Source: Bryobacteraceae bacterium (lineage in GTDB: Bacteria; Acidobacteriota; Terriglobia; Bryobacterales; Bryobacteraceae). From it: DNA of 64,000 nt. The DNA is taken from NCBI GenBank assembly GCA_023384675.1, contig JAHDVK010000004.1, positions 214,486 to 278,485 on the forward strand, given 5' to 3'. Of the stretch, positions 2,765 through 58,330 are shown in pieces. Under the pieces are notes generated by a model, which was given only the letters and a program-made list of their open reading frames with translations, was not told where the DNA came from and ran no database searches. The position numbers were made by a program, and so were the translations under genes. Each line of letters opens with the position of its first letter. The first letter of the stretch is position 1.

Positions 2765-5317
2765 CTAGAACCTCACTCTCAACAGAACCTGGAGGCGGCG
2801 CGCGGGTCTGGCGGAGGCAGCGCGTCCAAAAAACGGGGAGCTTTGGTTGCCCACGTAGCTGGAGTAGTTCACGCGGTTCAGGACGTTGAAGGCGTCGAGC
2901 GCGAGGGTGGCACGAACGCGGCTGTCGATTCCTCTGCGGCTGAGGTTGAAATCCCGGGACCAGCGGAGATCGACTACGGCGGAGCCGGGTCCCTGGAGAG
3001 TGTTGCGCGGGACTCCTGCGGGACGGTCGCGGGCGATGCCATCGCCGTTATCGTCGCGGCCGGTGGTCAGGCTGTAGGGACGTCCTGAATCGAGCCCTAA
3101 TTGTATGCCCAGACGGAACCAGCGGCCGGGCTTCAGGGTGCCCGCGATATCGAACTGGTGCGGGCGGTTGAAGGAGGCGCGGGCCCATTCGCCGGAGAGG
3201 TCGTAGCTGTCGGCGGGCAAGGAATCGATCCCCTCCGTATCATTGTAGGCCCGGCCGGCTGCGTATCGCACCATGCCATTGAAATAGCGGGTGAGATCGC
3301 CGCGGACGGAGACCTGAAGGGAGTGGGATTGGAGCGAGCCGGAGGTTTCGATCTGGCGGAGGAGACCGAAGGAGGGATTCGGACGCGTCCCGTTGAAGGG
3401 GGCGTTGAGGTCGCGCGAGCGCAAGATCTTCCGGCCGCTAACGCTGTAGTAGGTGGCGGAGAGGCTGGTCCCTTTCCCCAGGCGGCGCTCGATGCCGAGG
3501 CTGGAATGGATGGCATAGGGCGATTCGATGTCCGGCGCGAAGCGGACGATGCCGGGGGGAGGGGAATCGATGCCTGCGTAGCCGGCGAAGGGGTTCGGGT
3601 ATCCGGGCTCCGCAAGGATCAGTTGGCGGAAACGGCTGCCATCGAACAGCAGGGTATCCCGCGGGGCTCCGCTGCTCATGCGGTCATAGAAAATGCCCAC
3701 ACCGGCCCGCAGTACGGTGTTCCGTGCTTCGCCTGGGGACCATGCGGCGGAAAGGCGCGGGGCGATGTTCCGGCCGGCGAGATACTTCTGTTGATTGATG
3801 CGGAGTCCGAGTCCGAGGGTGAGGTTGGGACGGAGGCGGAAGTCGTCCTGGATGAAACCGGCCAGTTCGTACGTCCAGAAGTTGAGGCGGCCATCGCCCT
3901 GCTGTTGTTCGAAGGCGTAGGGGCGGCCGGCGGCGTGGTCTTCCAGTGAGGAAAAGTAGTAGGTGCCTTCGCGGTTTCTGCGGTCGTGGAAGCCGCGGCG
4001 GCTGAGGTCGCGGAGGCTTGCTCCGGCGCGGACGAAGTGCCGGCCGGCCGACCAGGTGAAAAGATCCTGGAGTTCCAGCGAGTGTTCGTTCTTGTATTCA
4101 TCTGCCTGGCCGCCGCCGCTAGTGAAGGCGTCCTGGACCACGAGGCGGCGAGAGCCGGAGAGCAGACTGCGCGTTTCCTTGGTCTCGGATTCGAGGCGGA
4201 CCTGGAGTTCGTGGATGACGGACGGCCCGAGGATGTACTGGTGCTTGAAGCGGACGCTGTGTTCGCCGGCGGTGCGGTCGCTGGCGGTTTCCGGTAGGTG
4301 GAAGCCGCCGACACCGCGGCCTTCGTCGGATTCCCGCTCCGACTCATATTGGATCGAGAAGAGGGTCTTCTCGCTGGGCCGGTGATTGATGCGGGCAGAG
4401 AATTCGGTTTCGCGGGAGGGTGTCGGGAATTGCTCCTGCAGGATGCCTCGGGGCGTGCGCGCGAAGACGTTGGCGTACTCGTCCTGTTCCTCGCGCTCAG
4501 CGCTAATCAGGAAGGACGTGCGGCGGCTTTTTCCGAGCGGGCCGGTGAAGTGGCCTTCGAAACCACGGCGCTGCTCCTCCGGACGGCGGGCGGCAAAGGC
4601 GTTGCGGGCATTCAGGCGCCAGTCGCGCAGTCGGAATGAGAAGGACCCGTGGTACTGGTCGGTTTCCTGCTTCGTGATGACCTCGATGCGGCCGCGGCCG
4701 GGGCTCGAGTATTCGGCCGAGTAGGGATTCTGGTTGATCTTCACTTCCTGGATAGCCGAAGGCGAGAGGCGCAGCTTATCGGATTCCAGGCCATCGATTA
4801 CCAGGGACGCGCCGCCGGTACCGGCGGCGCCGGGGTCCAGGAACCGGGAGAGGGCCCCGATGACGTCGTCGTCCATGACAGGCAGGTAGTCCAGCAGTTC
4901 CCGGCTGACGACCACTGCGTCGGAGTTCGAGGCGGGCTCGGCGCTTACGGTCTCGTAGGAATCAGTGACGCTAACCTCCTGCTGTAGGTTATGGATTTTC
5001 AGGGGAATGCGGAGGGGCGGATACGGGGTACGCGTGATCTCTAAGGCAACGGTAGCTTCCTGGAAACCTGCGGCGACAACCTGCACTTCGTAGGCGCCGG
5101 GGCGGATGGCGTTGAAGCGGAAGGCGCCGCCGGGTCCGGTGAGCGTTTGAGCTACGAGTGTTCCTCCGGGTAGAAACAGTGAAATGGAGGCTTCGGGGAC
5201 GGCGCCGCCGGCGGGGTCGTGAACTTCGCCCGATAGCGTATAACGAGCGAGCGCAGGGTCAGCGGCAAGCGCAATGCCCGCGATTGCGAGGAATAGGAGG
5301 CAACGCAGAACAATCAT
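2765..5317 (-). CDS. Oar-like TonB-dependent receptor with carboxypeptidase-regulatory-like domain
   Basis: The 850-residue outer-membrane protein starts at ATG 5317, which gives a clean signal peptide (MIVLRCLLFLAIAG...ALA); a longer TTG-start form would bury it. After cleavage comes a carboxypeptidase-regulatory-like beta-sandwich (about 20-105; SGEVHDPAGGAVPEA). Then a plug domain (about 115-215, with VIDGLESDKL and IQEVKINQNPYSAEY), then a long beta-barrel ending in an aromatic residue (RVRF). It resembles the receptor at 29673-32210 throughout, including the C-terminal NVLNRVNY and SPFFG motifs. It leads an operon with an exported protein and a sigma-54-class two-component system. The substrate is unknown; such Acidobacteriota receptors are usually linked to glycan or oligomer uptake. 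Confidence 0.88.
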   Translation of the reverse strand: MIVLRCLLFLAIAGIALAADPALARYTLSGEVHDPAGGAVPEASISLFLPGGTLVAQTLTGPGGAFRFNAIRPGAYEVQVVAAGFQEATVALEITRTPYPPLRIPLKIHNLQQEVSVTDSYETVSAEPASNSDAVVVSRELLDYLPVMDDDVIGALSRFLDPGAAGTGGASLVIDGLESDKLRLSPSAIQEVKINQNPYSAEYSSPGRGRIEVITKQETDQYHGSFSFRLRDWRLNARNAFAARRPEEQRRGFEGHFTGPLGKSRRTSFLISAEREEQDEYANVFARTPRGILQEQFPTPSRETEFSARINHRPSEKTLFSIQYESERESDEGRGVGGFHLPETASDRTAGEHSVRFKHQYILGPSVIHELQVRLESETKETRSLLSGSRRLVVQDAFTSGGGQADEYKNEHSLELQDLFTWSAGRHFVRAGASLRDLSRRGFHDRRNREGTYYFSSLEDHAAGRPYAFEQQQGDGRLNFWTYELAGFIQDDFRLRPNLTLGLGLRINQQKYLAGRNIAPRLSAAWSPGEARNTVLRAGVGIFYDRMSSGAPRDTLLFDGSRFRQLILAEPGYPNPFAGYAGIDSPPPGIVRFAPDIESPYAIHSSLGIERRLGKGTSLSATYYSVSGRKILRSRDLNAPFNGTRPNPSFGLLRQIETSGSLQSHSLQVSVRGDLTRYFNGMVRYAAGRAYNDTEGIDSLPADSYDLSGEWARASFNRPHQFDIAGTLKPGRWFRLGIQLGLDSGRPYSLTTGRDDNGDGIARDRPAGVPRNTLQGPGSAVVDLRWSRDFNLSRRGIDSRVRATLALDAFNVLNRVNYSSYVGNQSSPFFGRAASARPARRLQVLLRVRF

Positions 5318-5777
5318 GTCTCTGGTGCTGCAGTTGGAGTTCCACGCGGAAGGTAATGAAGAGAAATGAGTTAGGGAAACCCTGGACAAGGCAGCGTGAT
5401 TTTTCCGAACGGCGGGATGTTCGGATTGCGAACGAGCAAGCGTGCCGACGCTGACCTTTGCGGCTACCTGGCTGGCTGGAAAGGCGGGACATGCCGGATC
5501 CGGACGCCGAGGTTGTGGGTGGCGGGGAGGTCAAGGGCGAGGAAGCCACGAGCGTCGATGCGGAGTTCGGACATTTGAGTTCGCCAATCTCAATTGGCCT
5601 CATCTGATGGTTTGAAATGGCCCCACCTGGACAGGCCGGGTCGTGGCAAGTGCCACGATGCCGGGATGGACAGACTCTCCGGATGGGCTGTTTACGCCCT
5701 GGTCGTGAGTCTGCAAACCCGGCGAGCTAATCCAGGAGGAAGTCCCTGAAGCGGCTTTCCCACAGACACTCGCAGCG

Positions 5778-9113: not shown

Positions 9114-10400
9114 ATGCTTCGCAGGAAATTCATGGACTTCGGACTCCGCGGGACCGTCGCCCTGAGGGCGGCGCGGAGCGCCGCCGTGGCGGCCAACGAC
9201 AAGGTCTCCGTGGCGGTCGTCGGCGTGGGCGGCATGGGCAATGGCCACGTGCGGATGCTGCTGGCCGCGCCCGGCGCGCACATCGGCGCGCTCTGCGACA
9301 TCAACCAGGAGAAGACCGAGCGCGCGGGCCAGCAGGTAAACCGCGAGAAGGGCCACACGCCCCGGCTCGAGCAGGACTTCCGCCGCCTGCTCGACGATAA
9401 GTCGATCGACGCCTTCGTAGTCGCCACGCCCCACCACTGGCACATTCCAGTCACCCTCCGGGCACTAGCCGCGGGCAAGGACGTCTATGTGGAAAAGCCC
9501 GCCAGCCACGTCTTCCGCGAAGGGCGTCTGTTGATCGACTCCGCGCGCAAGTACAAGCGCATTGTGCAGCACGGCACGCAGATGCGGTCCTCCGATACCT
9601 TCGCCAAAGCAGGCGAATTGCTCAAGTCCGGCATCCTCGGCGAGATCCGCATGAGCAAGGCGTGGAACATCCAGAAGCGCAGCCATCCCGAGCCCACCGC
9701 CGACAGTAAGACGCCGCCGGGCGTCAACTACGACCTGTGGCTTGGCCCGGCGCCATCGCGCGCCTCGTTCAACCCCAACCGCTTCGACCCCAACTGGCAC
9801 TGGTATCCCGAATACGGCAACGGCGACATTGGCGGCGACGGCATCCACGACCTCGACCTTGCCCGCTGGGGCCTCGGCGCCAACACGCATCCGGTGAAGA
9901 TCACCGCGCAGGGCAGCAGGACTTTCCTGAAGGGCGAACGCCAGTTCCCCGACAACATGATCGTCGCCTACGATTACGCCGATGGCAAAGTGCTCATCTA
10001 CGAGGACCGCATCTGGGTACCCTACGGCATGCACGGCTTCGATAGCGGCAACGCGTTCTATGGCAGCGAGGGCTACATGATCTTCTCGCGCCGCGGCTAC
10101 TTCCAGGTCTATCTGGGCGCGAAGGAAGAGAAAGGGCCGGGCCTCGAAAAGGGCGGCCGCGGCCAACCCGATCACATCCTCAACTTCCTCGACTGCGTGC
10201 GCACGCGCAAGCAGCCCGCCGCGCCGCCCGAGGCAGCGCACCTTTCCTGCGCCCTCGTCCACCTCGGCGAGATCGGTTACCGCGTGGGCCGCGTGCTCCA
10301 CTTCGATCCCGTGAAGGAAACCTTCCCAAAAGACGCCGACGCCACCGCGCGCCTCACCAAGACCTACCGCGACCCGTGGAAACTTCCGGACCCGGTCTGA
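9114..10400 (+). CDS. Gfo/Idh/MocA-family oxidoreductase (exported type)
   Basis: The protein has 428 residues. The N terminus MLRRKFMDFGLRG resembles a degenerate Tat leader. A Rossmann NAD(P)-binding domain follows, with VAVVGVGGMGNGHV at about 32-45, then PHHWHIPVTLRALAAGKDVYVEKPASH, whose EKP is the family's signature. The C-terminal domain contains the GDIGGDGIHDLDLARWGLG segment typical of the sugar dehydrogenase/glycosidase-like subgroup. GGAGGG lies upstream of the start. It is immediately followed by a predicted glycan-active protein and a dehydrogenase, suggesting oxidation of a sugar or sugar acid outside the cytoplasm. Exact substrate unknown. It resembles the gene at 12925-14199. 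Confidence 0.92.
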   Translation: MLRRKFMDFGLRGTVALRAARSAAVAANDKVSVAVVGVGGMGNGHVRMLLAAPGAHIGALCDINQEKTERAGQQVNREKGHTPRLEQDFRRLLDDKSIDAFVVATPHHWHIPVTLRALAAGKDVYVEKPASHVFREGRLLIDSARKYKRIVQHGTQMRSSDTFAKAGELLKSGILGEIRMSKAWNIQKRSHPEPTADSKTPPGVNYDLWLGPAPSRASFNPNRFDPNWHWYPEYGNGDIGGDGIHDLDLARWGLGANTHPVKITAQGSRTFLKGERQFPDNMIVAYDYADGKVLIYEDRIWVPYGMHGFDSGNAFYGSEGYMIFSRRGYFQVYLGAKEEKGPGLEKGGRGQPDHILNFLDCVRTRKQPAAPPEAAHLSCALVHLGEIGYRVGRVLHFDPVKETFPKDADATARLTKTYRDPWKLPDPV

Positions 10401-10409
10401 GGGATGTGG

Positions 10410-12041
10410 ATGAAGCTCCTCCTGGTCCTCGCACTGGCGGCCAGCGGCCTCGCCAGTGACGAGGCCGCATTCCTGCGGGCCGAGGACAGTGCCCGCCGCT
10501 TCGACGAGTCCGCCCACCGCATGGACCGCATGCTGCGAGCATGGATCGCGCACGCCGATCCGAAAACGCTGCTCATCCCCAACCGTCTTCCCGGTGGGCG
10601 CCCCGGCCGCGGGCTCGCCCCCGGCGAGCGCAGCCGCATCTACGAACCACACAACTCGGGAGCCGATCTTTACCCCTACCTGGTCCTGGCCGCTGAGTGG
10701 ACCGCCCCCGATCTCTATCGAGGCCCGCTGTTAGCCATGCTCCGTTCCGAGGTGCGCTACACAAGCGTTGCAGGCGGACTGACCGCCGAATCGCTGGACC
10801 TCAACACGGGCTCGCTCGGCCCGCCCAGCGTCTTTGCCGCCGCGGAGTACCTCAAGGACGGCCTCGTCCCGGTGGCCGAATACCTCGGCCGCGGACCCTG
10901 GTATTACCGCATGGTGGACCTCGCCGCCACGCTCATGGAAGGCGCCGCGGTGAAATCGGCCCACGGCCCGCTGCCCTCCACGAACAGCGAGATCAACGGA
11001 AACCTGCTTCAGGTGTGCGCGCGGCTGGCCTTGTCCGAACCGGACCCGCGTTTTCTCGAATGGGCGCGCCGCATCGCCGATGCCTACGTCCTCGAGGTCC
11101 TGCCGGGCAACCACGGTCTGCCGCCCACCGAGTGGGACTTCTCGAAACGCACTGGCGGCGGCCCGTGCCGGCTGCGCAATCACGGCAACGAGGTCATCTC
11201 CGGACTCGCCTTGCACTATGCCGTCGAATGCCAGCTTGACGGTACGCGCTGCGAAAGCTACCGCGCCACGCTGCGCACGATGTTCGACCGCATCCTCGCC
11301 TCCACCGACGCGGGCGGCATGCTCTATAACAGCATCAACCCAGGGACGCTCAAGCCCGAGGGCGAGCTTGCGGACCAATACGCCGACACCTGGGGCTATG
11401 TTTACGCCGCGATCTACTCCTTCTATCAGGTCACCGGCGAAACGAAGTACCGCGACGCCGCCCGCCACGTTTTGCGCAATTTGCCCAAGTACCGCGAAGT
11501 GGATTGGGGCGACCGCGGCTCCGTCAACGGCTATACCGACACCATCGAGAGCGCCATTTACCTGCTTGCCCGCGAGCCCGTCGGCGAGGCTTTCGAATGG
11601 GTCGAGTCCGAAATCCGAGTCATGGAGAAGGCGCAACAGCCCGGGGGACTAGTCGAGAACTGGTACGGCGACGGCAACTTCAGCCGCACGCTGCAACTCT
11701 ACGCCTTGATGCACAGCCAGGGCGCACGCCCCGCTCATTGGACGCCCGGCCGTGGCGTGGGCGCGGTGCGGCAGGGCGGCCGGCTGCTGCTAGCCATCCG
11801 CGCGGAAGGCCCGCTCGAAATCCGGTTCGACCCCGCGCGCCACCGCCGCAACTGGGGCTTCGCCCAAAGCTACACCCGCCTGAACGAGTATCCTGAGTGG
11901 TACGCCGTGGAGCCGAACCGGCTCTACCGCCTAGGCCCGCCCGGCGGCGAAGCGCAAGTTTACCTCGGCTCGGAACTAATCCAGGGCGCCACACTCCAGC
12001 CCGGCCGCTGGGTGCTTGAGCCGTTCGCACCGCGGCCGTAA
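10410..12041 (+). CDS. Secreted protein with predicted (alpha/alpha)6-barrel fold, possible glycan-processing enzyme
   Basis: The 543-residue protein has a signal peptide (MKLLLVLALAASGLAS). I preferred the ATG at 10410 over that at 10404 because GAGGG lies six bases before it. The body is rich in paired helices with aromatic and acidic residues (ADQYADTWGYVYAAIYSFYQVTG, then VNGYTDTIESAIYLLA), a pattern of six-hairpin glycosidases or lyases. The C-terminal part looks beta-rich (PLEIRFDPARHRRNWGF). No exact family is recognised. It lies three genes deep in an operon-like run with a Gfo/Idh/MocA protein and a hydroxyacid dehydrogenase, so polysaccharide or uronide breakdown is plausible. Confidence 0.7.
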   Translation: MKLLLVLALAASGLASDEAAFLRAEDSARRFDESAHRMDRMLRAWIAHADPKTLLIPNRLPGGRPGRGLAPGERSRIYEPHNSGADLYPYLVLAAEWTAPDLYRGPLLAMLRSEVRYTSVAGGLTAESLDLNTGSLGPPSVFAAAEYLKDGLVPVAEYLGRGPWYYRMVDLAATLMEGAAVKSAHGPLPSTNSEINGNLLQVCARLALSEPDPRFLEWARRIADAYVLEVLPGNHGLPPTEWDFSKRTGGGPCRLRNHGNEVISGLALHYAVECQLDGTRCESYRATLRTMFDRILASTDAGGMLYNSINPGTLKPEGELADQYADTWGYVYAAIYSFYQVTGETKYRDAARHVLRNLPKYREVDWGDRGSVNGYTDTIESAIYLLAREPVGEAFEWVESEIRVMEKAQQPGGLVENWYGDGNFSRTLQLYALMHSQGARPAHWTPGRGVGAVRQGGRLLLAIRAEGPLEIRFDPARHRRNWGFAQSYTRLNEYPEWYAVEPNRLYRLGPPGGEAQVYLGSELIQGATLQPGRWVLEPFAPRP

Positions 12042-48810: not shown

Positions 48811-49506
48811 CTACTCCACCATGAACCGGTAGCCCACGCCGGGTTCGGTGCGCAGGTGGCGCGGGCGGGCCGGGTCGGTCTCCAACTTACGGCGCAGGTG
48901 CCCCATATAGACGCGAAGATACTGCGCCTGTTCGCTGTGCTGGGGCCCCCAGACCTCGATGAGCAGTTGCCTTTGGGTGACGACCTTGCCCGCGTGCCGG
49001 ATCAGCGTCTCCAGCATCCGGAACTCGATGGGTGTCAGATGGACTTCCGCTCCGCCGGCACGGACGACTCGCGCCTCCAAGTCGACCATGATGTCGCCAG
49101 CGCGAAAGGTCGTGCCTTCGGACCCGTCCCGGATGGTGGCGGCCCGCCGCAGCGCTGCGCGGATGCGCGCCAGCAGTTCTCCCACCGCGAATGGCTTGCT
49201 CACGAAATCATCTGCGCCGAGATCAAGGGCCTCGATTTTGTCCTTCTCCTGCCCCCGGGCGGACAGCACGATGATGGGTGTCTGGGTGCTGAGCCGCAGA
49301 ACCCGGATCACTTCCAGCCCATCGGTATCGGGTAAGCCGAGATCGAGCAGAATCAGGTCCGGCTGGCGTGCTTGCGCTTGCGCGATGCCTTCCGTTGCCG
49401 TGACCGCCTCGTGATAACGGAACTGCTCGGCGGCCAGCGTGGCGCGCAGGAAACGCCGGATTTGCGGATCATCCTCGACGATCAGGATCTCGGGCGCGTT
49501 AGTCAA
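48811..49506 (-). CDS. kdpE: KdpE, OmpR-family potassium response regulator
   Basis: The 231-residue protein is of KdpE type: receiver E11/D12/D13, phosphoacceptor D55 (LILLDLGLPDTDG), VLSARGQEKDKIEALDLGADDFVSKPF, and a winged helix with LTPIEFRMLETLIRHAG, VWGPQHSEQAQYLRVYMGHLRRKLE and EPGVGYRFM, all characteristic of KdpE. I chose a TTG start at 49506 because GGAGGT lies five bases before it. It overlaps the end of the kdpD reading frame by eight bases, so it was translationally coupled to kdpD. It appears intact even though the rest of the operon is broken. Confidence 0.93.
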   Translation of the reverse strand: MTNAPEILIVEDDPQIRRFLRATLAAEQFRYHEAVTATEGIAQAQARQPDLILLDLGLPDTDGLEVIRVLRLSTQTPIIVLSARGQEKDKIEALDLGADDFVSKPFAVGELLARIRAALRRAATIRDGSEGTTFRAGDIMVDLEARVVRAGGAEVHLTPIEFRMLETLIRHAGKVVTQRQLLIEVWGPQHSEQAQYLRVYMGHLRRKLETDPARPRHLRTEPGVGYRFMVE

Positions 49507-52071
49507 CCGGGACCTCCGGAGGCGGGCCCGGTTGGGGCAACCGGATCCGGACGACGGCTCCCCCCTCCGGCTGGTTGGCCGCATCGATGCGGCCTCCGTG
49601 CGCAGTCACAATGGCACGGCAGATCGGCAGGCCGAGTCCCGCGCCACATGCCCCCGCCGCCCGCCCGCGGTAGAACTTGTCCCACACCAGGAGTTCTTCG
49701 CCGGAGGCGAACCCAGGTCCGGAATCGCTGATCTCCATGGCCACTCCCTCATTGTCTTCCCAGGCGGCGATCGAAATGGGGGAGCCGGCAGGCGTGTACT
49801 TTGACGCATTCTCCAACAGGTTCCAGAGGACCTGTTCGAACAAGACCGCGTCAACGGAAACCATCAGGTCGGGAGGCAGGCTGGTGGTGACCTTGCGGCC
49901 TTCAAGTACGCGATCGAGCCGGGTTAACGCCGCGCCGGTCAGTTCTTCCAGCGGATACCATTCCCGCCTGACCTGCACGCTGCCGGCTTCAATCCGGGTC
50001 ATTTCGAGCAGGTTGTTCACCAGGCGGCTCAGCCTCTCGGCTTCGGATTCGATGCTTTCAAGCAACTCGTGTCGGGTGTCCTCGCTGAGTTGTTGGCTCT
50101 GCGATCTGAGACTGCTGGCCGCGCCCGTGATGGCCGCGAGTGGGGTCCGCAGGTCGTGAGAAACCGCACTGAGCAGACTGCTGCGCATTTGCTCGGTTTC
50201 CGCGCGGAGCTGCGCTTCGCGGGCGGCGTCCGCGGATTGAGCACGTTCGATGGCAAGGGCCGTCTGGCTGGCGAAGATATCGAGCAGATGGAACTGCTCC
50301 GGCGAGTCGAGATGGGCGGACTCCTCGGGGACGACGGCCAACACGCCCACATGGCCCTGCGAGCCCTTCAGCGGAAGATAGAGGGTGGTGGCGCCGGGCA
50401 GTGTGTCTGTTCCCTTGCCCGCCTTCTGGCCGTGGTCAAAGGCCCACTGCGCGATGCCGGCTTCGCCAGCCGGAACGGGAAGATCATCCGTCGTGCGCTG
50501 GTCAAGCGAAATCTTGCCGCCCTCTTCGGGAAAAACATGACGATTCGCGTGCCGAAGACCTCCCGGGCGATAGTGGTGGCGGCGCGGGCGGCTTCCATCC
50601 AGCGGGTCTCGCTGCTCAACTGTCTGGTGAGCCGGTACAAAGCCTGGGTGCGGGCCTCCCGCTGGGACGCATGTTCCGCCTGCAACCGGACTCTGATCGT
50701 CAAAGAAGCGATAAGCCCGGCCACAATCAGCATGACCGCAAAGGTCAGGAGATATTCGTAGTCGGAGACCGCGAAAGTCAGATAAGGCGGCACACAGAAC
50801 AGGTCGAAGGCCGCCACGCTCAGCACACACGAGAACAGCGCCACCCCACGGCTGGACCGCATCGCCACAGCGACGACGCCCAGAAAGTAGAACATCGCCA
50901 GGTTAACGGGATTCAGGGCACCTCGCAGTGGAATGGACACTGCCGTGGTGAGAGCGACGATGGCCGCCGCCCATGCCACCTCCCGCCACGGGAATGGCTC
51001 CGCGCGCGCCACTTGCGGCGTTGGGGGCATGGGGGCTTCGGTTTCACCGGAGATGGCGATGATCTCAATGTCACCGCTCTTGGCCACCAGATCGTCGAAG
51101 ACCGAGCCCCTCCAGAGGCGCTTCCACAGCGGCCCCGCCTGCTTGCCGAGCACGATGCGCGAGACGTTGCGCGAACGGGCGTAATCAAGCAGGGCGTCGG
51201 CGACGTTCGGGCCCGTCAGGGTGACCGTCTCGGCACCCATCCGGTCTCCGAGGCGGAGAGCGGACTGGACCCTGCGGCGCGTCTCCTCGCTGGCTCCGGC
51301 CTGCGCCGGAGTCTCGACGTAGGCGACGATCCATTCCGCATCCAGGCGCTCAGCGATGCGTTTGGCCGAACGAATCAGCTTCGCCGAAAACGGACTGGGG
51401 CCGACGGAGACGATCAGGCGTTCAGTGACCGGCCAACTGGAGCGGATCGAGTGGTCCCACCGGTAGAGTCGCATCTGTGCGTCGACGCGGTCGGCCGTGC
51501 GCCGCAGGGCAAGCTCCCGGAGTGCAATCAGGTTCCCCGGACGGAAGAAGCCTGTCATGGCGCGCTGTGCCTGATCAGGCACGTACACCTTGCCTTCCTC
51601 CATCCGCTTGCGCAGTTCCTCGACGGGGAGGTCAATCAGTTCTATGTCATCGGCCTGGTCGAGGACTGAGTCGGGCAATGTCTCGCGCACGACGATGCCG
51701 GTGATCTGTGCGACCACATCGTTGAGGCTGTCCAGATGCTGAACATTGAGCGTCGTGTAGACGTCAATGCCGGCGTCGATCAATTCGAAGACATCCTGCC
51801 AGCGTTTGCCGCGGCCTTCGGCCATCGCTTCGGCGAAATTGCCAAACAGAACCGTGAACCAGAGCCAGAGGCTGATGGAGAGAATGAAGCCGGCGGGCGC
51901 CTCGCCCTGTCCGGCAAGGGCCTGAGCGCCCAGCGCCGCAGTCAGCAGGCTCCCCACGAAGACGACGAACACCACCGGGTTCCGCATCTGGTGGCGGGGG
52001 TCGAGCTTGCGAAACGAGTCGCGGAGCGCCTGACGGACGATGTCGCCCTCGAATAGGTTGCGCTTTGTCAT
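49499..52071 (-). pseudogene. kdpD: In-frame kdpB'-'kdpD fusion with a frameshift (decayed kdpB-kdpC-kdpD)
   Basis: Residues 1-88 read as the KdpB N terminus ([40 protein letters not shown]). The next residues, [31 protein letters not shown], are KdpD from just after its Walker region. The missing segment is the rest of KdpB, all of KdpC and about 130 residues of KdpD, including Walker A and B; the junction is at about 51803-51810. The fusion then continues as normal KdpD: USP domain, four membrane helices, GAF. At 50531-50535 a run of five T (minus strand) changes frame after IVMFFP; kinase motifs continue in the other frame (SAVSHDLRTPLAAI, LLENASKYTP, GAGLGLPICRAI). Two lesions make a working KdpD unlikely. 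Confidence 0.9.
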
Positions 52072-53684
52072 TGCAGTGCCTCCACGATCGGACCGAGAGC
52101 GAGCGCCGGGATGAACGCCAGCGCGCCAACGATCAGTACGGCTCCCGCCAACAGGACGACGAACAGAGGCGTATGCGTGGATAATGTGCCGGGCCCTGCG
52201 GGGATCGTGTTCTTTGCCCCAAGCGAGCCCGCGATCGCCAGCACCGGCAGCGCCACCCAGTAGCGGGCCAGCAGCATGGCGAGGCCCCCGGTGAAGTTCA
52301 CCAGCGGATTATCCGCTCCATAGCCCGCGAACGCGCTGCCGTTGTTGTTCCCCATCGAGGAGAACGCGTACAGTATCTCGCTGAAGCTGTGCGGGCCGCG
52401 GTTGGCGCGGCCGCTCAGCCCCATTGGGGTCACCACGGCGATCGCGGTTCCGGCAAGCACGCACAACGGCGGCACAAGGATCGCAATCGACGCCATCTTC
52501 ATCTCGAAGCTCTCCACCTTCTTGCCGAGATACTCCGGCGTGCGGCCGACCATCAGGCCGGCGAGGAAGACCGCGATGACGGCGAAGATGATCATCCCGT
52601 ACAAACCGGAGCCGGCGCCTCCAAAGACGACCTCTCCCACTTGCATCAGAAACATCGGAACCAGCCCACCGATGGGCGTGTGGGAGTCGTGCATGGAGTT
52701 GACCGAACCGTTCGAGGCGGCCGTTGTGGCCACCGCCTATAAGGCTGAGTTACTGGTTCCGAATCGAGTCTCCTTGCCTTCCAGGTTGCCTTGCTCGGCA
52801 TGCACCGCCACGAACAGAAGCGGAACGAATATGACCAACATCGCCGCCAGAAGCGCCCACCCCTGCCTCCGGTCTTTGACCAGAAAGCCGAAGGTGTAGC
52901 ACATCGCGGCAGGAATCAGCAGCAGAGCGAGACACTCCAAAAAATTCGACAGCGGGGTGGGATTCTCGAACGGATGCGCCGAATTGACATTGAAGAAGCC
53001 GCCGCCGTTCGTGCCCAGTTGCTTGATGGCTACCTGCGATGCGGCCGGTCCCATCGGAAGGACCTGCTCTGAATCCGCGACTTTGACGGACGCGTCGAGG
53101 TTCAGAATCACCCCCTGTGAGACCAGGGCGAGACAGAGCAGGGCGGAGAGCGGCAACAGGATGTAGAGAGTGCCGCGGACCAGATCGGCCCAGAAGTTGC
53201 CGATCTCCCGAACGCCGCGCCCCGCCAGCCCGCGAGCCAGCGCCACGAGAATCGCCATCCCGGAGGCCGCGGACACGAAGTTCTGCACGGTCAGGCCCGC
53301 CATTTGCGTGAAGTAGCTAAGCGTCGCCTCACCGCCGTAGTTCTGCCAGTTGGTGTTGGTCGCAAAACTCACGGCGATGTTGAATGCCGTATGCGGGGCA
53401 ACAGGCCCCATCGTCTGCGGATTCCAGGGCAGCCATTGCTGCGCGCGCAGCAGAAGGTAAACGAGCAAAAAGCCCACGGCGTTGGACGCCAGCAGCGCAC
53501 CCGCATAGGCCTTCCAGTGAATCGATGCCGGGCGGGCGATGCCCGCAAGCCGGTAGAGCCAGCGCTCGGGCGCTGATTCCCACCGCCCGCCGTAGACCCA
53601 GGCCATATAGCTGCCAAGCGGCTTCACCAGCACGAGCAGAACCGCCATGTAGAGCGAAATCTGAATCCAGTCACTGCCTGTCAT
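52068..53684 (-). pseudogene. kdpA: kdpA with an in-frame amber codon
   Basis: The frame encodes a KdpA-like potassium-channel subunit of about 538 residues with the family selectivity motifs ([55 protein letters not shown]). At 52737-52739 the codon TAG replaces the expected Phe/Tyr in [23 protein letters not shown]. Reading frame is preserved on both sides, so this is a single nonsense change, not a frameshift. The upstream stop overlaps KdpF (ATGA) and the downstream stop overlaps the KdpB start (ATGA), the normal kdp order. Without suppression only the N-terminal 316 residues are made. Confidence 0.88.
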
Positions 53685-53773
53685 GAGAAGATCTCCGGCT
53701 TGAGCAGCGCCACAAACAGATACAACAGAAGGCCGATGGCCACCAGTCCGCCCACGAGGTAAAGAGCCGTCAT
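53681..53773 (-). CDS. kdpF: KdpF, small membrane subunit of the K+-transporting ATPase
   Basis: This 30-residue single-helix protein reads MTALYLVGGL then VAIGLLLYLF then VALLKPEIFS. The terminal A/V-LL-(K/R)-PE-x-F is the KdpF signature. It is too short for normal gene finders. Its TGA overlaps the kdpA ATG (ATGA), as in other kdpFABC operons. In working systems it stabilises the complex; here kdpA, kdpB and kdpC are disrupted or missing. Confidence 0.88.
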   Translation of the reverse strand: MTALYLVGGLVAIGLLLYLFVALLKPEIFS

Positions 53774-53859: not shown

Positions 53860-54215
53860 CGAATCACCTCGCATCGCTGATGGGGACTCAAGTCCCGCTA
53901 CCCAAAGCGTAGGGATATGCGTGTAGAGGCCGCGCTAAAGAATCTTCCCCGCGCATTAAGATTCCGCAAAAATCCTCACCCGAGTTCGCGGGTCTTCACT
54001 CCGTCCGGGTGACCAACCAAGGTGCAGTATCCGGATTTCCGCAGTGTGGATGGCGGCGATGGCAGGTCTGGCGAGCCTTTACCGATCCGCGGGTCACGCG
54101 CCATGCCGGTGCGGGGACTCTCGAGCAGAAGTTCCTTCCCTCACTCGAATGCCAAGGCGGCGCGCAAGGCGAGGCAGGTGTCACCGAAATGCTATTGCAT
54201 GTGATAGTAGCCGTG
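53860..54215. other. kdp promoter region and gene-free stretch before the PIN gene
   Basis: The left part is the kdp control region with the inverted repeat at 53940-53964. The right part (about 54000-54215) can be read through in the plus frame into the PIN gene. That extension has no recognisable domain and passes at least three better starts, so I leave it out of the gene. Confidence 0.4.
53940..53964 (-). promoter_or_regulatory. Possible KdpE-type operator
   Basis: GAATCTT (53940-53946) and AAGATTC (53958-53964) form a perfect 7-bp inverted repeat with 11-base spacing, about 80 bases upstream of the first kdp microgene. The region is A/T-rich by local standards. KdpE binding is inferred from position only. 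Confidence 0.4.
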
Positions 54216-54647
54216 ATGCGGGTTGTTTTGGATACGGATGGGTTGGCCGCTGCGCTTCGCAGCGACCAGGGCGCCTCGCGGCAACTCCTTCTGGCGGCCT
54301 TGGACCGGCGGTTCGTATCGCTCGTATCGGTTCCGTTGATGCTCGAGTATGAGGCTGTATTGACGCGGCAGGAGCACCGGGCCGCGGTCGGCATCACGAC
54401 GGAAGACGTGGATGTTGTGCTCGATGCGTTAGCTGCGGTGATCGAGGCCGTCCGACTGAGCTTCCTTTGGCGGCCGACACTCAAAGATGCCGCCGATGAA
54501 ATGGTGCTTGAAACTGCGGTGAACGGCAAGGCGGATCGCCGGGTGACCTTCAACCTGAAGCATCTGGGTAAGGCTGCCTTGGAGTTTGGGATTCGAGCCA
54601 CGAGGCCTGGCGGAGCTTTGAGGGAGATTACGGAGAGACAGAGATGA
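54216..54647 (+). CDS. PIN-domain ribonuclease toxin (COG1569-like)
   Basis: The 143-residue protein is of the PIN type, starting MRVVLDTDGLAAALRSDQGAS with the first catalytic aspartate D6. Later are the acidic residues of LEYEAVLTR and LKDAADEMVLETAVNGKADRRVTFNLKHLG. The common D-T-N-V at the start reads D-T-D-G, and the usual C-terminal P-D-D-D is A-A-D-E, so activity may be altered. The start ATG is chosen at the normal beginning of the PIN strand. Overlaps its presumed antitoxin by four bases (ATGA). Confidence 0.85.
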   Translation: MRVVLDTDGLAAALRSDQGASRQLLLAALDRRFVSLVSVPLMLEYEAVLTRQEHRAAVGITTEDVDVVLDALAAVIEAVRLSFLWRPTLKDAADEMVLETAVNGKADRRVTFNLKHLGKAALEFGIRATRPGGALREITERQR

Positions 54648-54889
54648 GAAGAAGCAACGTTGCGCTGAGATTGCAGACGTCGCTGCTGGACGAAGCGCGC
54701 CGGGTGGCAGAGAGCGAAGGTGTCGCCGTCAACCAGTTGATCTACGTGGCGGTGGCGGAGAAGTTGTCAGCGTTGCGGACGGAGGACTACTTTCGGGAGC
54801 GCGCGGCCCGGGCCAGCATCACCAAGGCCAAGAACGTGTTGAAGCGCGCCGGCAAGGGAAAGCCCCCGGCGCCCGGCGACGAGAAGTAG
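54644..54889 (+). CDS. Antitoxin, ribbon-helix-helix/HicB-like
   Basis: The 81-residue protein reads NVALRLQTSLLDEARRVAESEGVAVNQLIYVAVAEKL, a ribbon-helix-helix DNA-binding pattern common in HicB-C-terminal and related antitoxins. A charged tail (RAASITKAKNVLKRAGKGKP type) could cap the toxin. It follows the PIN gene with an ATGA overlap, giving a toxin-first order. The pair lies just inside the right copy of the flanking repeat, as is typical for stabilising modules of islands. Confidence 0.83.
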   Translation: MRRSNVALRLQTSLLDEARRVAESEGVAVNQLIYVAVAEKLSALRTEDYFRERAARASITKAKNVLKRAGKGKPPAPGDEK

Positions 54890-56228: not shown

Positions 56229-56921
56229 GTGCCGACTTTGCGAATACTGGTGATCGAAGACGAGCCCAAGGTTGCGCGTGCCCTCCAACAGGGCCTGGAG
56301 GACGAGTCCTACGGGGTGACCCTGGCCCAGACCGGCGAAGAGGGGTACTTCCTCCTCACCTCCCAGCGCTATGATCTGGCGATTATTGACGTCATGCTGC
56401 CGGGGCGCGATGGTTTTGAGATCCTCGAGGCGGTGCGGCGCCAGGGTTGCAGAACTCCCGCAATCATGCTGACCGCACGCGATGCCCTGGAGGACCGGGT
56501 TCGTGGGCTCGATCTCGGCGCAGACGATTATCTGGTTAAGCCGTTCGCCTTCCCGGAACTCTCGGCGCGCGTCCGTGCGCTGCTGCGCCGCAGCCAACCG
56601 CAGCCCCCGGCTCTGCTCTCGCTGCTCGATCTAGAGATCGATCCCGTCGCCCGCTGCGGGCGGCGCGGCGGCAAGCCCCTCGATCTCACGCCGCGCGAAT
56701 ACGAACTCCTGGAGTACCTGCTTCGCCACCAGGGTCGAATCGTGAGCCGGGAGATGCTCACTCGCGACATCTGGAAAGAGCCGGTGCGCCACACCCCTCT
56801 TGATAACGTGATCGACGTGCACATGGTCCGGCTGCGAAGAAAGGTGGACGAGGGGTGCGCCGTACGCCTGCTCCACACTGTGCGCGGCGTGGGTTTCACC
56901 TTGAAGGCCGGACATCCATGA
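56229..56921 (+). CDS. OmpR-family response regulator
   Basis: The 230-residue protein has a receiver with E10/D11, phosphoacceptor D54 (LAIIDVMLPGRDG), T82 in MLTARD and K104 in YLVKPFAF. The winged helix has LTPREYELLEYLLRHQG, DVHMVRLRRKVDEG and HTVRGVGFTL. GTG start. It overlaps the kinase by four bases (ATGA). The three-heptamer repeat at 58339-58367 in front of the cytochrome operon is the expected target, so this pair probably controls respiration-linked genes downstream. Confidence 0.94.
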   Translation: MPTLRILVIEDEPKVARALQQGLEDESYGVTLAQTGEEGYFLLTSQRYDLAIIDVMLPGRDGFEILEAVRRQGCRTPAIMLTARDALEDRVRGLDLGADDYLVKPFAFPELSARVRALLRRSQPQPPALLSLLDLEIDPVARCGRRGGKPLDLTPREYELLEYLLRHQGRIVSREMLTRDIWKEPVRHTPLDNVIDVHMVRLRRKVDEGCAVRLLHTVRGVGFTLKAGHP

Positions 56922-58330
56922 TTGACCTTCGCCCGCGCCGAGTTCGCACCCGCCTCACACTCTGGTATACCGGGGTTCTGGCGGCGATTCTGGCGCTGGC
57001 TGGTGCGGCGGTCTCGATGCTGTTTTTGTACGAACTGCGAGACCAATTGGATATCCATGCCATTGAGCAACTCGAAGCGGTCGAGACGAAGTTCCAACTA
57101 CTGCCGGACGGTACCGTGCAACTGCCCGAGGAGCAGCATCATCACCCGTATCCGGCGACCGAAGAGATCCGATTCATCGAGGTCCTCTCGGGTGGCGGTG
57201 CAATTCTTTACCGCAACGAAGAGCTTCAAGGACGGGCTCTTGACTGCCCGCCGTCACTCGGCGAAGGAGTGGTTTCCTATGGGCCTCGTTCGGTGCAATT
57301 GGCTGGAGGCGTCCGGGTCCGGGTCGTCAGCCAACGTTACCCGGTCGGAGGTGAAGAAGTCCTCATCCGCATGGGCCTGAGCGAAGAGCCGATGTGGCGG
57401 CGGTTCCGTCACTCCATCCTCATGATGCTGCTGGGTTTCCCAGTGGCGCTGGGCCTGGCCGCATGGGGTGGCTCGTTTCTTGCCGGCCGGGCCCTTGCCC
57501 CGATCAGTGCGCTCGCGCGCAAGGCGGAGGAGATCAACGCCGAACAACTCCACGACCGCCTGCCCCTTGAGAACCCCCAAGACGAGATCGGCCGGCTCGC
57601 CAGTGCCTTCAATGCCACTCTTGCCCGCCTCGAATGCTCCTTCCAGCAACTGCGGCGCTTCACCGCCGATGCGGCGCATGAACTTCGCACGCCCCTGACC
57701 GCCATCCGCAGCGTCGGAGAGGTCGGTCTGAGCCGCCCCGGTAATGCGGAAAGCTATCGCGAAACCATCGAAAGCATGCTCGAAGAAGTGAATCGCCTGG
57801 GATTTCTCGTCGAAGGCTTGCTGGCCATGACACGAGCGGACAGCGGCCAATTCCGTCTGAAACCTCAGCCCGTTTGCTTGCTCGGCCTTGCGCGCGAAGC
57901 GGCCGACTTCTTAAGCGTGCTTGTGGAGGAGCAAGGCCAAAGCCTGGCCATCGAAGGTGCGAGTGTCAAAGTGCCCGTAGACCCGATGATTGTCCGGCAG
58001 ATCGTGATCAACCTGCTGGACAACGCCATCAAGTACTCGCCCACGGGTTCGCCCATCCGCATCCGGGTGTTTCCTTCCCAAGCCGGTTTCGCGGCGCTTG
58101 AGGTGGAGGATGCTGGTCCAGGGATCCCGGCAGAGCACCGGCCGCACATCTTTGAGCGTTTCTACCGTGTCGAGGCTGGTCGAGAGCGGGGCCGGGGCGG
58201 CGCCGGGCTTGGTTTGGCGATCGCCGCCTGGGGGGCCAAGGTTCATGGTGGAAACCTCACGCTGGAATCCGGGAGCGGTGGCTGCGTTTTTCGCTTGTCG
58301 TTGCCTGTTCAGCCCCAAGCGCAAACCTGA
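56918..58330 (+). CDS. Sensor histidine kinase (CusS/QseC-like layout)
   Basis: The 470-residue protein has membrane helices near 15-37 and 166-188, and a periplasmic domain of about 125 residues with a His cluster (EEQHHHPYPA, 71-80). HAMP spans about 189-240. HisKA has H254 in DAAHELRTPLTAI. The ATPase domain has LLDNAIKYSP, DAGPGIPAEH and GGAGLGLAIAAW. The His run could bind metal or heme, but that is speculative. The start overlaps the regulator stop, and the downstream cytochrome operon begins 69 bases after its end. Confidence 0.93.
   Translation: MIDLRPRRVRTRLTLWYTGVLAAILALAGAAVSMLFLYELRDQLDIHAIEQLEAVETKFQLLPDGTVQLPEEQHHHPYPATEEIRFIEVLSGGGAILYRNEELQGRALDCPPSLGEGVVSYGPRSVQLAGGVRVRVVSQRYPVGGEEVLIRMGLSEEPMWRRFRHSILMMLLGFPVALGLAAWGGSFLAGRALAPISALARKAEEINAEQLHDRLPLENPQDEIGRLASAFNATLARLECSFQQLRRFTADAAHELRTPLTAIRSVGEVGLSRPGNAESYRETIESMLEEVNRLGFLVEGLLAMTRADSGQFRLKPQPVCLLGLAREAADFLSVLVEEQGQSLAIEGASVKVPVDPMIVRQIVINLLDNAIKYSPTGSPIRIRVFPSQAGFAALEVEDAGPGIPAEHRPHIFERFYRVEAGRERGRGGAGLGLAIAAWGAKVHGGNLTLESGSGGCVFRLSLPVQPQAQT

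Follow-up and report, generated by a model that had tools for sequence, protein, structure and literature searches.

The kdp operon in the 64,000-nucleotide stretch analysed here (the window) carries three lesions, namely an in-frame join of kdpB to kdpD, a stop within kdpA and a frame change within kdpD. Catalogue relatives that are 85–94% alike (P0002–P0004) have open copies, and taken together these observations fit a recently broken kdp operon. We conclude, with a probability of about 0.85, that the operon was recently inactivated and that the 567-residue chimera encoded across the join is a by-product and not a new working protein; this is gene decay of the ordinary sort with an unusual product. 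The genes lie on the minus strand in the order kdpF-like ORF, kdpA, kdpB′, ′kdpD and kdpE. The initial annotation of this DNA had drawn attention to the join, but did not link it to the stop in kdpA or to the change of frame in kdpD, both of which are signs of operon decay.

The kdpB–kdpD join and the chimeric frame

The chimeric ORF (50368..52071, minus strand) comprises a KdpB N terminus, a partial KdpD domain, a USP domain and a DUF4118 domain, and ends out of frame. In BLASTP alignments, residues 1–95 match KdpB from three related loci (L051, L065 and L033) with 69–77% identity, and residues 89–521 match residues 126–558 of the catalogue KdpD protein P0003 with 93.8% identity. The KdpB remnant, residues 1–88 (51808..52071, minus strand), is recognised both by BLASTP and by TIGR01497. 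Alignment of the relatives places the join at 51802..51810 (minus strand), where KdpB residue 88 is followed by a shared lysine, Lys89 of the chimera and residue 126 of P0003, and then by KdpD. These alignments bear out the initial annotation, both in the place of the in-frame join (residues 88–90 of the ORF from 52071, approximately 51802–51810) and in its reading of the two sides as KdpB N terminus to residue 88 and KdpD past its Walker region. The organism's own genome contains the exact junction string a single time. A degenerate form of it, which a diverged junction could escape, was searched for in 257 genomes of the order and is present in one, again the own genome.

Against TIGR01497 (KdpB) the chimera scores 84.0 bits, over positions 4–96 only and far from the cut-off of 527.9. 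The KdpB motifs TGES (157) and DKTGT (311) fall past residue 88 in three relative KdpBs and are thus missing from the chimera; the KdpB frames of three relatives are 686 residues each. On the KdpD side, the match to PF02702, the KdpD N-terminal domain, covers profile positions 100–210 only, and the Walker A (GVGKT, 37) and Walker B (DELAHTN, 112) sequences of P0003 precede the join at 126, so that neither is in the chimera. The USP (PF00582, 34.1 bits) and DUF4118 (PF13493, 92.8 bits) domains both score above their cut-offs. The HisKA and HATPase_c domains are absent from the chimera's own chain and are found only in the ORF at 49499–50830, in another frame. The earlier description of the product as a USP–kinase hybrid is therefore right as to the USP domain and wrong as to the kinase.

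Hydropathy analysis shows hydrophobic stretches at residues 29–80 (KdpB-derived) and 364–464 (KdpD-derived). If made, the product would sit in the membrane through two KdpB and about four KdpD helices, and its USP domain would be cytosolic. Its predicted chain has neither the ATP-binding serine-kinase site nor a histidine kinase, and would have no enzymatic activity that we can name.

Translation of the chimera could still be possible, judging from a ribosome-binding-site-like GGAGG 7 bases upstream of its ATG. This open frame of 567 residues, and a hydropathy consistent with a membrane protein, are what would be expected if the chimera were a selected, membrane-anchored sensor fragment, touching KdpE, for example, through its N-terminal/USP part. 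In Escherichia coli, isolated KdpD 1–395, according to the available text of one report, causes constitutive kdpFABC expression and stabilises the phosphorylated KdpE–DNA complex (PMC2714519). We nevertheless regard a working chimera as very improbable, given that the frame contains no kinase and neither Walker motif, that the pump to be regulated is no longer present, that the junction pattern is confined to the one genome among 257, and that in two other chimeras of the protein catalogue, described below, the KdpD match likewise ends short of the kinase.

Extent of the deletion and origin of the join

The corresponding kdpABC–kdpDE loci of Bryobacterales (L063–L065, L051, L033, L032 and L056) have the same neighbours as the window, with 59–90% protein identity of the in-frame pieces, but their kdpB and kdpD are 2.7–4.6 kb apart at the join points. 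Ten relative loci were viewed; L031 duplicates the record of L063, and the stretch of L066 has no kdpB match. In the remaining eight (L063, L064, L065, L056, L032, L033, L051 and L067) KdpB residue 88 and the corresponding position in KdpD are separated by, in ascending order, 2723, 2728, 2730, 2759, 2770, 2826, 3846 and 4593 bp. L063 and L065 have ∼1.1 and 1.9 kb extra between kdpB and kdpD compared with the other relatives.

KdpC was not found in the own genome (G000; one genome searched, 97.4% complete, in 60 contigs), and KdpD residues 1–122 were not found anywhere in it. Nine KdpB match rows are present, all under the family cut-off; one is at the kdp locus, and the eight elsewhere look like other P-type ATPases. 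Relocation of the pump was rejected, since KdpC, the KdpB body and KdpD 1–122 are not elsewhere in the genome sequence. The eight relative loci and these searches support the proposal in the initial annotation that a deletion took most of KdpB, all of KdpC and the N-terminal part of KdpD. Such a deletion would span about 2.7 kb or more, from kdpB codon 88 to the middle of the KdpD N-terminal domain, and could have preceded or followed either of the lesions in kdpA and kdpD.

The suggestion that a short shared sequence of AAACGC type might explain the join does not survive comparison with the relatives. On the KdpB side, the lysine codon (AAA or AAG) precedes GCG or GCT in six of the eight, and the other two have AAG GCC (L056) and AGG GCA (L032). 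The base after this codon is thus G in all eight, compared with C in the window, so that microhomology of this type is absent on the KdpB side. On the KdpD side the relatives have, for example, GTC AAA CGA (L032) and GCC AAA CGC (L067). Any overlap shared by the two sides would be, as inferred from these sequences, at most about CAAA (∼4 bases); a deletion with such an overlap would make the join, the frame being kept by chance.

That the genome is in 60 contigs lends some weight to the alternative of an assembly or sequencing fault, in which join, stop and frame change would all be errors and the organism's operon would be intact. Some four shared bases, the most that the relatives allow at the join, are however too few for an assembler to collapse as a repeat, and the missing segments are not on other contigs. 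The 567-residue protein is also listed, letter for letter except for its start, on two catalogue contigs, the longest of 278,485 bases, and the 315-residue first piece of KdpA is listed on a catalogue contig of 224,976 bases. A second record thus seems to show the same broken operon, although the records may share the same reads. In the light of these observations, and of the state of the rest of the window (below), we consider a fault of this kind improbable. The join may also be a population variant.

Lesions in kdpA and kdpD and the state of the operon

The kdpA gene is divided into a first part of 315 residues (52737..53684, minus strand; PF03814 profile 2–326), which ends in an in-frame amber stop at 52737–52739, and a second part of 221 residues (52068..52733, minus strand; PF03814 profile 330–548). 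The four closest KdpA relatives among the matches listed (P0198–P0201; best 120 of about 8000) are open at the stop site, and no stop separates the two parts in any of the eight relative loci that have both (seven distinct genomes); the L064 contig ends within kdpA. One codon past the stop there is a GTG in the same frame (52731–52739, minus strand), and from the sequence a translation restart there, giving a split KdpA, is possible in principle.

The closest of the listed KdpA relatives, P0198 (96% identity in the N-terminal part; on a 38,427-base JGI contig), is itself out of frame at 362–470. This lesion is different from that in the window, and may mean either that kdpA is decaying in the sister lineage too or that P0198 contains a sequencing error. 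The presence of such a block, whether error or decay, gives a sequencing fault in the window some plausibility, against which the Pfam comparison described below argues.

In kdpD, the internal frame change falls at 50525..50540 (minus strand), as judged from the mapping of P0003 and from a codon-usage frame scan. The match to P0003 extends in one frame as far as 50509 and starts in a second frame at 50533, and the scan switches at 50527/50528. It is because of this frame change near 50530 that the chimeric product ends after its USP and DUF4118 domains, at 567 residues. The C-terminal remnant of KdpD (49499..50527, minus strand) continues in the other frame with 94% identity to residues 551–887 of P0003, and the ORF that contains it, at 49499–50830, matches GAF (PF13492), HisKA (PF00512) and HATPase_c (PF02518).

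A kdpF-like ORF of 30 residues (53681..53773, minus strand), read by eye, overlaps the start of kdpA. The response regulator gene kdpE (48811..49584, minus strand) has an intact frame with Response_reg and Trans_reg_C domains, and its product is 60–77% identical to the regulator adjoining kdpD in all ten relative loci, L031 being the same record as L063.

The scan divided the 64-kb window into 48 segments, of which 39 are coding; 14 of these 39 were flagged, by a stop offset of more than 45 bases or an internal stop, and two of the 14 are the kdp lesions. When 18 ORFs lying at or next to the remaining flagged sites were searched with Pfam, no pair of neighbours carried successive parts of one family. 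Most carry different families, and four of them gave no match; for the pairs 2120–2761 with 2765–5389 and 9114–10400 with 10404–12041 the result comes from one partner. It is less clear-cut for the small flagged segments next to 54118 and 61308 and for the sequence following 58330. With no split family at these other sites, there is no visible abundance of broken genes in the window.

Amino-acid changes were polarised using the window, a sister and an outgroup sequence, with 40 background sequences. The KdpD piece has 16 changes on the window side and 9 on the sister side, or 10 and 9 without six window changes that lie past the frame change. The corresponding numbers are 10 and 6 for the C-terminal part of KdpD and 7 and 3 for the N-terminal part of KdpA, giving 27 window and 18 sister changes for the three pieces, an apparent, weak excess. 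If the count is restricted to columns with at least 95% conservation among the 40 background sequences, and the same six changes are dropped, there are 5 window changes (0, 2 and 3 in the three pieces) and no sister changes. When P0002 is the comparison for the KdpD piece, the ratio is 8:6, or 4:6 without four changes past the frame change. The C-terminal part of KdpA was left out of the sums, with 3 window and 62 sister changes, because the sister P0198 is out of frame there. An excess as small as this is one of the points in favour of a working chimera. It fits either very recent decay or continuing constraint on certain pieces; it is thus compatible with a very recent loss, and does not prove that selection was lost.

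The Kdp pump cannot assemble without KdpC and the KdpB body. A full pump comprises KdpA, KdpB and KdpC; here there is no KdpC, KdpB is below its cut-off and KdpA is split by a stop. Lacking KdpC and the body of the P-type ATPase, the organism would make no K+ pump from this operon, and KdpE would be left without a partner. The own genome contains two TrkH-type loci and no Kup was found in it, so that K+ uptake is likely to proceed through Trk and would now be carried by these two loci; replacement of Kdp by Kup was rejected for want of a Kup match. Among 61 genomes searched around the own one, 35 have no match to the chimera, and some of the 26 that match do so only partially, indicating that Kdp is patchy in these genomes.

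Several other features lie close to the operon. At 54009–54889 (plus strand), adjoining its kdpF side, a gene for a PIN-domain protein (PF13470) is overlapped by a downstream 81-residue ORF that has no Pfam match; together they look like a toxin–antitoxin pair. A second two-component system (56229–58330, plus strand), comprising an OmpR-type regulator and a HAMP histidine kinase, is found near the broken kdpDE. A recombinase of the phage integrase family (PF00589; 61519–62430, minus strand) lies ∼8 kb from the kdpA start.

Other chimeras and known Kdp systems

The initial annotation knew of no precedent for such a protein. Among the titles and abstracts listed on KdpB–KdpD fusions and on kdp decay there is no such fusion, but the protein catalogue contains two further chimeras, P0121 and P0122, which weakens that statement. 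With a 101-residue query across the join, the window's own protein (P0001) scores 208 bits, P0121 127 and P0122 110, and the next match, an ordinary KdpD, 98. Like the window protein, both have a KdpB N terminus joined to KdpD past Walker A and no kinase domain, but the join points are different: P0121 is KdpB to about residue 196 and KdpD from about 107, whereas P0122 is KdpB to about 134 and KdpD from about 54. The KdpD match stops before the kinase, at about residue 583 of P0121 and 317 of P0122, in what from the sequences we read as frame changes. Their identities to three reference KdpD proteins (45–49% for P0121 and 61–67% for P0122) assign them to other lineages. Both come from short ENA contigs, of 2677 and 2800 bases respectively, and may be chimeric assemblies.

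All three chimeras among the matches listed thus have neither the KdpD Walker A nor a kinase. Selection for the frame cannot be shown by this agreement, because a protein search sees in-frame joins only. In all, three of the 316 proteins fetched (196 through the chimera searches and 120 through the KdpA search) match both KdpB and KdpD; each search listed the best 120 of some 8000 hits, a limit that could leave more distant chimeras undetected. With so few proteins matching both, and the junction pattern in a single genome of the order, a conserved fusion architecture was rejected.

Decay of kdp has been described elsewhere. Francisella tularensis SchuS4 has kdpA and kdpE pseudogenes, a decay like that in the window, and the available text of that study describes no kdpB–kdpD join (PMC6584805). 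In functional systems, as far as the accessible part of one account goes, KdpE is phosphorylated by KdpD when K+ is low, and the Walker A and B motifs of KdpD belong to an N-terminal domain that acts as an atypical serine kinase and inhibits KdpB (PMC11018627). The same text describes natural short versions of KdpD (KdpD/Usp only, or without DHp-CA) that, as in the chimera, have no histidine kinase; these retain the serine-kinase domain at their N terminus "in almost all versions", whereas the chimera has lost both Walker motifs (PMC11018627).

It is conceivable, though we give it very little credence, that in-frame kdpB–kdpD chimeras arise repeatedly in different bacteria through deletions that take away KdpC, the body of the pump and the serine-kinase site of KdpD in a single step, leaving an expressed and temporarily useful membrane-anchored KdpD–USP piece. 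On the reading that we prefer, recent inactivation of the operon, a multi-gene pump and its sensor were lost in an apparent single deletion that happens to keep a long open frame. The case also cautions against taking gene calls and domain catalogue entries at face value, since such chimeras will be presented there as proteins. The three chimeras, with different joins and all without the KdpD Walker A region, form a small test set for the question of whether loss of the pump is coupled to loss of the serine kinase that inhibits it, or whether gene order alone accounts for the pattern.
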